The translations under genes were made by a program, and so were the position numbers. Shown here in pieces: positions 2,684-15,443 of a DNA stretch of 64,000 nucleotides; the first letter of the stretch is position 1, and each line of letters begins with the position of its first letter. The notes beneath the pieces are model-generated. The model was given only the letters and a program-made list of their open reading frames with translations, did no database searches and was not told where the DNA came from. The stretch is from a virus. The stretch covers positions 103,383 through 167,382 of IMG/VR virus record IMGVR_UViG_3300046003_006038; one strand, 5' to 3'.

Positions 2684-2768
2684 AAAGCTTAGGTTTTCGG
2701 GGTAACGGACCCTACTCACCATAAGCTTTAGTTGGTATTTTATGTATATTTGTAGCCGTTACCCTACA
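2684..2768 (-). ncRNA. Structured leader RNA upstream of the HNH gene (hairpins with long-range complementarity)
   Basis: On the transcribed (minus) strand, TGTAG/CTACA (2768-2764 with 2755-2751) forms a hairpin whose loop GGTAACGG (2763-2756) is perfectly complementary to CCGTTACC at 2708-2701. Including one base of the stem the match is 9 bp, GGGTAACGG with CCGTTACCC. A second stem AAAGCTTA/TAAGCTTT (2729-2722 with 2691-2684) encloses an inner GGGT/ACCC hairpin (2712-2709 with 2703-2700) and is followed by seven T and the HNH ATG at 2676. The 9-bp pairing and the 8-bp stem cross, so they could form a pseudoknot or kissing complex, or alternate with the inner hairpin. The second stem with its U run could also act as a terminator after uvsX. 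Function is unknown; structure is drawn by eye. Confidence 0.6.
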
Positions 2769-5306: not shown

Positions 5307-5957
5307 TTATTGCTTATATGTCCAATAATATCCTGCACAGCTATTTCCCTTTCCACTTACCACTCTATGTATGTCTCCTGGGCCTCTCTTTACACTCTTA
5401 GCTGCTGATATTATTGAATCCCATGTACTTATCTGGATAGTTCTGTCTTTGCTCCACTGTACTACTTCTCTCTTTCTGCCCTCGTTCTGTCCTCCGTAAG
5501 GTTTTAATACTCCTAATTGTTTTTCTCTATTCTGCCTTTTGTGCTCTTCCGTTATCACCTTACCTGTATGTACTCTTTTATTTCTTTCGGAAACATCCGG
5601 TCTTGGCCCTCTATTCTTTCCTTTCATTGTTAGTGCTCTCTGCCTATTTGATTCTTCAGAATTTTTTCCCGTCTTGTCAAGCGTTGTTGTTAGTTTACAA
5701 TTTAACCCTAACTGTCCTAAAACATCATAAAACTCTTGCCAATACCTTTCTCGATTATTTAACAAATCTGTTGGACATTCTTCCAGTATCTCTGTATTAT
5801 GATTTTCCCATCCATATTTTTTTAATGAATTATATAACTGTATTTGGTTTTTACAATTTGATAACCTCTTGTACTCGTTTAATCTTTGTTGAAGATTTAT
5901 ACTTTGCCCAATATATACTTTTCCTTTTGGATTTGTTATTTTATAAATTCCTACCAT
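5307..5957 (-). CDS. GIY-YIG homing endonuclease with NUMOD modules
   Basis: A 216-residue Seg-like free-standing endonuclease. The N-terminal GIY-YIG motif is clear: VGIYKITNPKGKVYIGQS (residues 2-19), then a conserved Arg (LQQRLNEY) and catalytic Glu region (NNRERYWQEFYD, about residues 67-78). The middle is basic and Gly/Arg-rich (NUMOD3-like, GKNRGPRPDVSERNKR), and the C-terminus (ISTWDSIISAAKSVKRGPGD ... YYWTYK) resembles a NUMOD1 helix-turn-helix. It is inserted between the polymerase and the gene preceding gp32. Spread by cutting related phage DNA is the family role. Confidence 0.9.
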   Translation of the reverse strand: MVGIYKITNPKGKVYIGQSINLQQRLNEYKRLSNCKNQIQLYNSLKKYGWENHNTEILEECPTDLLNNRERYWQEFYDVLGQLGLNCKLTTTLDKTGKNSEESNRQRALTMKGKNRGPRPDVSERNKRVHTGKVITEEHKRQNREKQLGVLKPYGGQNEGRKREVVQWSKDRTIQISTWDSIISAAKSVKRGPGDIHRVVSGKGNSCAGYYWTYKQ

Positions 5958-5964
5958 GTTTTAT

Positions 5965-5972
5965 TATAAATA
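5965..5972 (-). promoter_or_regulatory. TATTTATA element before the GIY-YIG gene
   Basis: The coding strand reads GCTATTTATAATAAAA, only 7 nt before the ATG. The sequence is one of the best matches to the recurrent element (see the finding on TATTTATA), but the spacing is shorter than the common 14-22 nt, so promoter function would imply a nearly leaderless mRNA. Confidence 0.4.
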
Positions 5973-15435: not shown

Positions 15436-15443
15436 TATAAATA
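15436..15443 (-). promoter_or_regulatory. TATTTATA element upstream of the tape measure gene
   Basis: The coding strand reads TCTATTTATATTAAATAC, 20 nt before the tape measure ATG and immediately after the terminator of the preceding gene. This terminator-then-element order is what a new transcription unit would show. Confidence 0.55.

Follow-up and report, generated by a model that had tools for sequence, protein, structure and literature searches.

What is the compact RNA that stands directly before the start codon of a phage homing endonuclease gene, and is it peculiar to that gene? The stretch of DNA analysed, hereafter the window, comprises 64,000 nt (positions 103,383 to 167,382) of a 167-kb virus record, IMGVR_UViG_3300046003_006038. 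On its minus strand the order is single-stranded DNA-binding protein, uvsX, leader, HNH endonuclease and 5′–3′ exonuclease, the leader RNA (minus strand, 2679-2768) lying between uvsX and the HNH start codon. The recombinase is UvsX-like by PHROGs and 82% identical to that of vB_FspM_immuto, a cultured Flavobacterium phage, which makes a host among the flavobacteria likely. The elements recognised are as follows, the gene last.

2771-2778, minus: late-promoter-like box TATTTATA, part of a longer conserved stretch, AAAAGTTGCTATTTATAT (2770-2787); from enrichment at ORF starts, and conservation of the stretch in T4-like relatives
2679-2767, minus: leader RNA as spanned by covariance model R1, which was built only from other lineages (E = 4.8e-13, 69.5 bits)
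2764-2768, minus: P1, 5′ strand UGUAG, close to where the RNA is predicted to begin; from fold and covariation
2756-2763, minus: loop 1, G followed by GUAACGG, the last 7 nt (2762-2756) kissing loop 2; 7 of 7 pairs covary
2751-2755, minus: P1, 3′ strand CUACA; from fold and covariation
2730-2750, minus: A-rich linker, its length varying from 9 to 29 nt within the family
2722-2729, minus: P2 lower stem, 5′ strand AAAGCUUA; from fold and covariation
2718-2720, minus: P2 upper stem, 5′ strand GGU, with U2721 as a bulge; from fold and covariation
2713-2717, minus: G-AGUA, 5′ half of a bulged-G (S-turn) internal loop; AGUA occurs with GAA in nearly all members, even where P3 is changed
2710-2712, minus: P3, 5′ strand GGG of a 3-bp tip helix; compensated variants are GAG/CUC, GGG/CCC and GUG/CAC
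2702-2709, minus: loop 2, U followed by CCGUUAC, of which 7 nt (2708-2702) pair with loop 1; from covariation and kissing scans
2699-2701, minus: P3, 3′ strand CCC; from covariation
2695-2698, minus: GAA-A, 3′ half of the bulged-G internal loop; from conservation among members
2692-2694, minus: P2 upper stem, 3′ strand ACC; from fold and covariation
2684-2691, minus: P2 lower stem, 3′ strand UAAGCUUU; from fold and covariation
2680-2686, minus: U7 run, either forming a terminator-like element together with P2 or serving as an unstructured leader at the start site; a T5+ run is present in 15 of 15 relatives from a scan that did not require one
2089-2676, minus: HNH homing endonuclease gene, in the same cassette as the leader; Pfam HNH (PF01844) plus a sub-threshold I-HmuI NUMOD-like domain

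The first hairpin, UGUAG-[GGUAACGG]-CUACA (2751-2768), and the second, which reads in full AAAGCUUA-u-GGU, G-AGUA, GGG, UCCGUUAC, CCC, GAA-A, ACC-UAAGCUUU and is followed by four further U and then AUU-AUG, are both contained in the minimum-free-energy fold (-28.5 kcal/mol, z = -2.8; none of 200 shuffles is equally stable). The start codon and the U-run lie outside P1, P2 and P3. A first-pass annotation, made from the letters alone, had already picked out the 5-bp hairpin with a loop complementary to CCGUUACC in the second hairpin (2701-2708), the outer stem AAAGCUUA/UAAGCUUU that joins 2722-2729 to 2684-2691, and the U7 and ATG (2676-2674), and all of these are present. Its list is extended here by the AGUA/GAA bulged-G internal loop, the P3 tip, the TATTTATA box and a second copy in the genome. 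Its 9-bp loop pairing has to be trimmed: the exact complement exists, but it overlaps P3 (GGG/CCC) so that 2 bp compete, and relatives keep 7 bp only, here GUAACGG of loop 1 with CCGUUAC within loop UCCGUUAC. AGUA opposite GAA is what we take to be the letter pattern of the bulged-G turn known as sarcin-ricin or loop E.

Could complementarity of this density be fortuitous? It had been judged hard to explain by chance, with a search for compensatory changes proposed as the check, and such changes proved abundant in the homologues. Among 24 T4-like relatives, gathered whether or not their loops could kiss, 98.1% of pair cells are formed and 72 cells are changed on both sides, a level reached by none of 500 shuffles and to be compared with at most 47% in slid controls; in their kissing helix 7 of 7 pairs change on both sides. 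A more diverse set of 14 has 95.7% of cells paired, with double changes in 18 of 25 pairs, and its kissing helix is 100% paired with 20 double-changed cells, the set having been chosen partly by kissing. RNAalifold recovers P1, P2 and P3 unaided. When distinct pattern matches were gathered without demanding kissing, 81 of 90 had a 6-nt partner for loop 2 within 70 nt upstream (9.6 expected with loops permuted), and two scans in which a fixed loop 2 was the sole demand found the partner in 15/15 and 39/39. P3 is likewise compensated while AGUA/GAA stays, as AGG/CCU, CAG/CUG and GGC/GCC in three loci (L479, L481 and L483). Some selections of members did require a U-run or kissing; the key covariation and kissing tests did not, and two alignments were left out of the counts, A3, of very diverse members, as it misaligned P1, and A7 because it was fitted to the model. 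Chance is rejected by the shuffles, the loop permutation and the covariation together, and both the structure and the kissing are, on this comparative evidence, real features of the RNA.

Nor is the window leader alone: judged by its sequence it is one copy of a conserved phage RNA family, of more than 100 distinct copies in phage contigs, which cannot be counted as independent events because many are related and from the same aquatic metagenomes. Their common anatomy is promoter box, hairpin P1, A-rich linker, hairpin P2, U-run and start codon, P2 having the AGUA/GAA internal loop of sarcin-ricin type and a 3-bp tip, and the two loops kissing through 6-8 bp. The first homologues came from blastn across loci fetched via their HNH and UvsX proteins, and had loops altered yet still matching. 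When viral contigs were scanned with the P3/turn motif as the only demand, neither kissing nor a U-run being required, 22 stretches were obtained, and every copy read from these first sets is about 20 nt upstream of an endonuclease start codon. With a looser viral-contig scan, which required a U-run, at least 106 candidate elements were parsed, a few of them chance matches; among the matches listed, 100 loci contained 105 places recognised by the covariance model. Within the window's own genome a model built only from other lineages finds exactly two copies, the second (G000:C1:86910-87027; L134, L150) being 79% identical, preceding another HNH gene and having a loop pair, GUGGAUG/CAUCCAC, that differs from that of the window copy but matches itself.

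Rfam 15 has no match at gathering threshold for the window or for nine loci with other members, and permissive Rfam scans gave sub-threshold, chance-level matches only, so the earlier suggestion of a new small RNA class holds in the sense of a conserved family without an Rfam match. Literature searches turned up no description of this RNA, though an unnamed earlier listing is possible in a large published set of human-microbiome candidate RNAs (PMC8040213). The strict pattern had no match in 795 bacterial genomes and the pattern scan of bacterial genome contigs none, all matches of a looser scan failing the kissing and stem check; a covariance-model search of 596 genomes scored only 11-22 candidates per genome and is uninformative on bacterial copies. 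Blastn of three members against cultured phages found no match. A divergent member was reached, solely through protein context, in the cultured Flavobacterium phage 11b (L498; AJ842011.2, 33650-33726; model E = 5e-5), where the kissing is CGGGCAGG/CCUGCCCG, P3 is AAG/CUU and AGUA/GAA is retained. Possible remote members are a weak one in Cellulophaga phage phi10:1 (L496; KC821618.1, 10260-10342; E = 0.009) and one seen by eye only in phi13:2 (L499; about 190-300); both precede replication genes, and in both the loops are still complementary and a terminator-like hairpin is present, whereas the AGUA turn is missing.

Which genes does the RNA precede? Two classes, homing endonucleases and phage replication genes. 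The former include HNH proteins with an I-HmuI-like tail, NUMOD4-HNH, NUMOD3/GIY-YIG-type, DUF723/Vsr-like and zinc-finger HNH-like proteins (the last, and some of the GIY-YIG assignments, made by eye), and the latter initiators, DnaD-like helicase loaders, primosome or replisome organisers and DUF6291 proteins; one Rha-type regulator gene is also preceded by a leader. A further kind of downstream gene is met in L481 (G812:C1:1893-1974), where the leader is upstream of an ATPase-like gene (MSGLRKATRQKAKIRLGLSAVSGGGKTYSAI..., Sak4-like by eye). A separate motif, TAGTTAT[CT]GGT[AT]ATCTTAAAACC, recurs 5′ of a small gene in several Bacteroidota phages (L496, L497, L161, L174, L201 and L226), placed either past the leader or ahead of the gene.

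That the RNA travels is apparent from the uvsX site. In uvsX relatives that lack an endonuclease, uvsX runs directly up to the exonuclease gene or overlaps it, and from such empty sites the RNA is absent together with the ORF; it is there only with an inserted cassette, whose gene is HNH in two loci (L053 and L069) and GIY-YIG in another (L059). The cultured vB_FspM_immuto has the empty arrangement, and the covariance model finds no RNA in it. Since the RNA is confined to occupied sites, and is there with either an HNH or a GIY-YIG gene, RNA and nuclease are, by this comparison, a cassette that moves together, and the RNA is common to unrelated nucleases. The first-pass annotation had inferred a switch for HNH translation or uvsX termination. 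A structured, kissing leader tied to HNH expression stands, and termination of uvsX is too narrow because the RNA arrives with the endonuclease cassette and occupies many other sites.

Where would the RNA begin and end? The TATTTATA box is immediately 5′ of P1 in the window and its T4-like relatives. It occurs no more than 45 nt upstream of 11 of 57 window ORF starts, 0.6 being the figure for random positions, an excess that marks it as a good late-promoter candidate in this T4-like flavobacterial phage. It is also found 15-31 nt before many other genes (e.g., on the minus strand at 15436, 17092, 26984, 27712, 34850, 36742, 38347 and 39134), and at 5965-5972, 8 nt before the start codon of a GIY-YIG homing endonuclease gene (window 5307-5957) that has no leader RNA. 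The last codons of the HNH gene (2089-2100, minus) hold a further TATTTATA immediately upstream of the exonuclease start, so that the exonuclease gene may owe its promoter or start region to the insertion, an arrangement described for T4 endonucleases. Members with other promoters have in the same place, in 53 of 74 versus 2.8 expected, a TAnnTTTG box, which is the Bacteroidota-type promoter box, mostly 8-10 nt upstream of loop 1. With promoter boxes just upstream at a fixed distance, the RNA should begin in P1.

As for the 3′ end, the U-run is retained in 15/15 and 32/39 of the members found without requiring it, though some have a run of only U4, and P2 has 9-15 bp in nearly all members, so that a stable stem is followed by a U-run as in an intrinsic terminator or attenuator. 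A simple terminator scan did not flag P2, as its criteria admit short loops only. Promoter, two hairpins and U-run look like one unit of about 85 nt.

Do any members hint at how such a unit works? In a subfamily with loop 2 CUGCNN the loop-1 sequence is repeated just 5′ of the start codon in 30 of 39 copies. Where NNGCAG stands before the start, its two free letters agree with loop 1 in 27 of 27 (10.1 expected by permutation, with a maximum of 19 in 20000); in the gene family MSERK... three different letter pairs occur and are matched each time, and L187 has the same third-site arrangement with another sequence, CAGCAC. Because the loop-1 sequence recurs before the start codon and covaries without exception, loop 2 in this subfamily is, from its sequence, provided with two competing partners, loop 1 or the start region, and cannot pair with both. 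This third site is the best hint of mechanism, for that subfamily only; in the window's leader loop 1 has no such repeat, and no translational switch is claimed there.

The reading preferred here, with a probability of roughly 0.6, is of a cis-acting leader that limits the downstream gene via its terminator-like hairpin and, in the CUGCNN subfamily, also via translation. From a promoter box just upstream, transcription would start at or near P1; P1 and P2 would then be joined by the 7-bp kissing of their loops, with the AGUA/GAA turn stiffening P2. P2 with the U-run has the build of an intrinsic terminator and finishes a few nucleotides short of the start codon, so the majority of transcripts should end at this point as RNAs of about 85 nt; the remainder would read through to become the mRNA of the gene. 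By this means a potent protein, a homing endonuclease or replication initiator that is harmful in excess, would be kept low or well timed, and where the third site is present loop 2 freed from loop 1 would block the start region, coupling the kissing state to translation. Transcript ends, termination, the direction of the effect, any trigger and any action in trans are what we infer from this architecture; probably the leader sets the amount made of homing endonucleases and replication-start proteins. That no conserved antiterminator was seen counts against the explanation.

Might the terminated RNA of about 85 nt itself be the main product, its loops pairing in trans either with further copies or with an mRNA's start region? 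The outcome would be control of dosage or immunity, as with the antisense RNAs for plasmid replication initiators, and a unit with its own promoter and a terminator-like end, initiators among its targets and, for one subfamily, a start region that loop 2 could pair with would suit it. However, with both loops complementary in one molecule a free RNA would satisfy itself, and the third site is missing in most members. The copies inside one genome do all differ in their loops, yet by no more than the diversity between genomes predicts (P = 0.60), and we regard such a trans-acting RNA as unlikely, though the likeliest of the rival readings.

A plainer proposal, rather improbable in our estimation, is an insulating terminator and mRNA stabiliser, without switching: transcription arriving from upstream would be stopped, and the endonuclease mRNA that starts at the late promoter would be shielded at its 5′ end. 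A stable P1 at the predicted 5′ end and a terminator-like P2 fit it, as does the need of a cassette to leave its neighbours undisturbed, but the compensated kissing helix, the invariant internal loop and the matched site at the start codon would all be superfluous for a plain terminator. Much less probable again is a riboswitch or protein-binding leader, in which the AGUA/GAA turn and the kissing complex would form a pocket, for a ligand or for a protein of phage or host, and binding alter termination. The internal loop is indeed the single nearly invariant piece of sequence; however, nearly all its invariant letters belong to a common structural turn, no other unpaired nucleotides are conserved, and the isolate phi10:1 seems to retain the kissing without the turn. 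The scaffold does recall that of the lysine riboswitch type, one arm bearing a loop-E/sarcin-ricin turn and the loops of two hairpins kissing, but here there are 85 nt with no multi-helix junction or ligand core. That the DNA is an operator, with two or three co-varying copies of one motif near a promoter acting as repressor half-sites and inverted repeats, is scarcely credible, since the motifs are in loops closed by covarying stems, with fixed orientation and variable spacing, and P3 and the AGUA/GAA turn would have no operator meaning.

Some known RNAs were also considered and rejected. An HDV-like (theta) ribozyme was considered first, a short pseudoknotted RNA in a phage being suggestive of one; there is no ribozyme match at gathering score, and by inspection the topology differs, loop 1 being in its own hairpin and no P3/L3 strand lying between P2 and the pseudoknot partner. 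HEARO/omega RNA is excluded by a partner that is HNH plus NUMOD-like rather than IscB, by the GIY-YIG and replication genes also served, and by lack of a HEARO match.

How does the leader compare with those of other homing endonucleases and initiators? In T4 and Aeh1 homing endonucleases (I-TevI, segB, mobE) are held low by leader hairpins, and the T4 hairpin sequesters the Shine-Dalgarno site on early and middle transcripts, while late transcripts, owing to where their promoter lies, are without it (PMC2988022). Shared are an RNA structure right before the start codon of a homing endonuclease, a late-promoter-like box and a presumed restraint or timing of the nuclease. The close analogy drawn in the first-pass annotation nevertheless fails, and a sequestering hairpin of T4 type is rejected: no stem covers the ribosome-binding site or start codon, the box lies upstream of the whole structure, the loops kiss, a single conserved RNA family is found with replication genes and with nucleases unrelated to one another, and the mRNAs of Bacteroidetes, Flavobacterium included, are naturally without Shine-Dalgarno sequences (PMC6847099).

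Plasmids offer another likeness. For RepZ of IncI plasmids and repB/RNAII of pMV158, structured initiator leaders have loop pairing that decides expression, and there too partner sequences vary while pairing is kept; in the phage family both complementary loops are in one leader, which is phage-borne and shared with homing endonucleases, and neither a separate antisense gene nor a sequence relation to the plasmid leaders was seen. It is tempting to go further and see an undescribed phage RNA class in which the loop is an address, each copy having its own loop pair and one subfamily adding a third matching site beside the start codon. Such an RNA would serve replication initiators as an orthogonal switch of dosage or immunity that acts in cis, perhaps also in trans, and homing endonucleases would have captured the module as a portable expression brake. 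This is put forward tentatively, as a possible but doubtful extension; loop orthogonality inside one genome, where all copies differ, is not statistically significant.

The gene control of the phages of Bacteroidota, hosts whose mRNAs lack Shine-Dalgarno signals, is little known, and these phages gain a widespread, well-defined RNA regulator with clear mutants to make, of which a cultured phage, Flavobacterium phage 11b, has a member. The three-way covariation makes the loop-competition mechanism directly testable. At one and the same insertion site, nucleases of unrelated families employ a single RNA module, and the leader links two classes of gene that need tight dosage, replication initiators and selfish homing nucleases.
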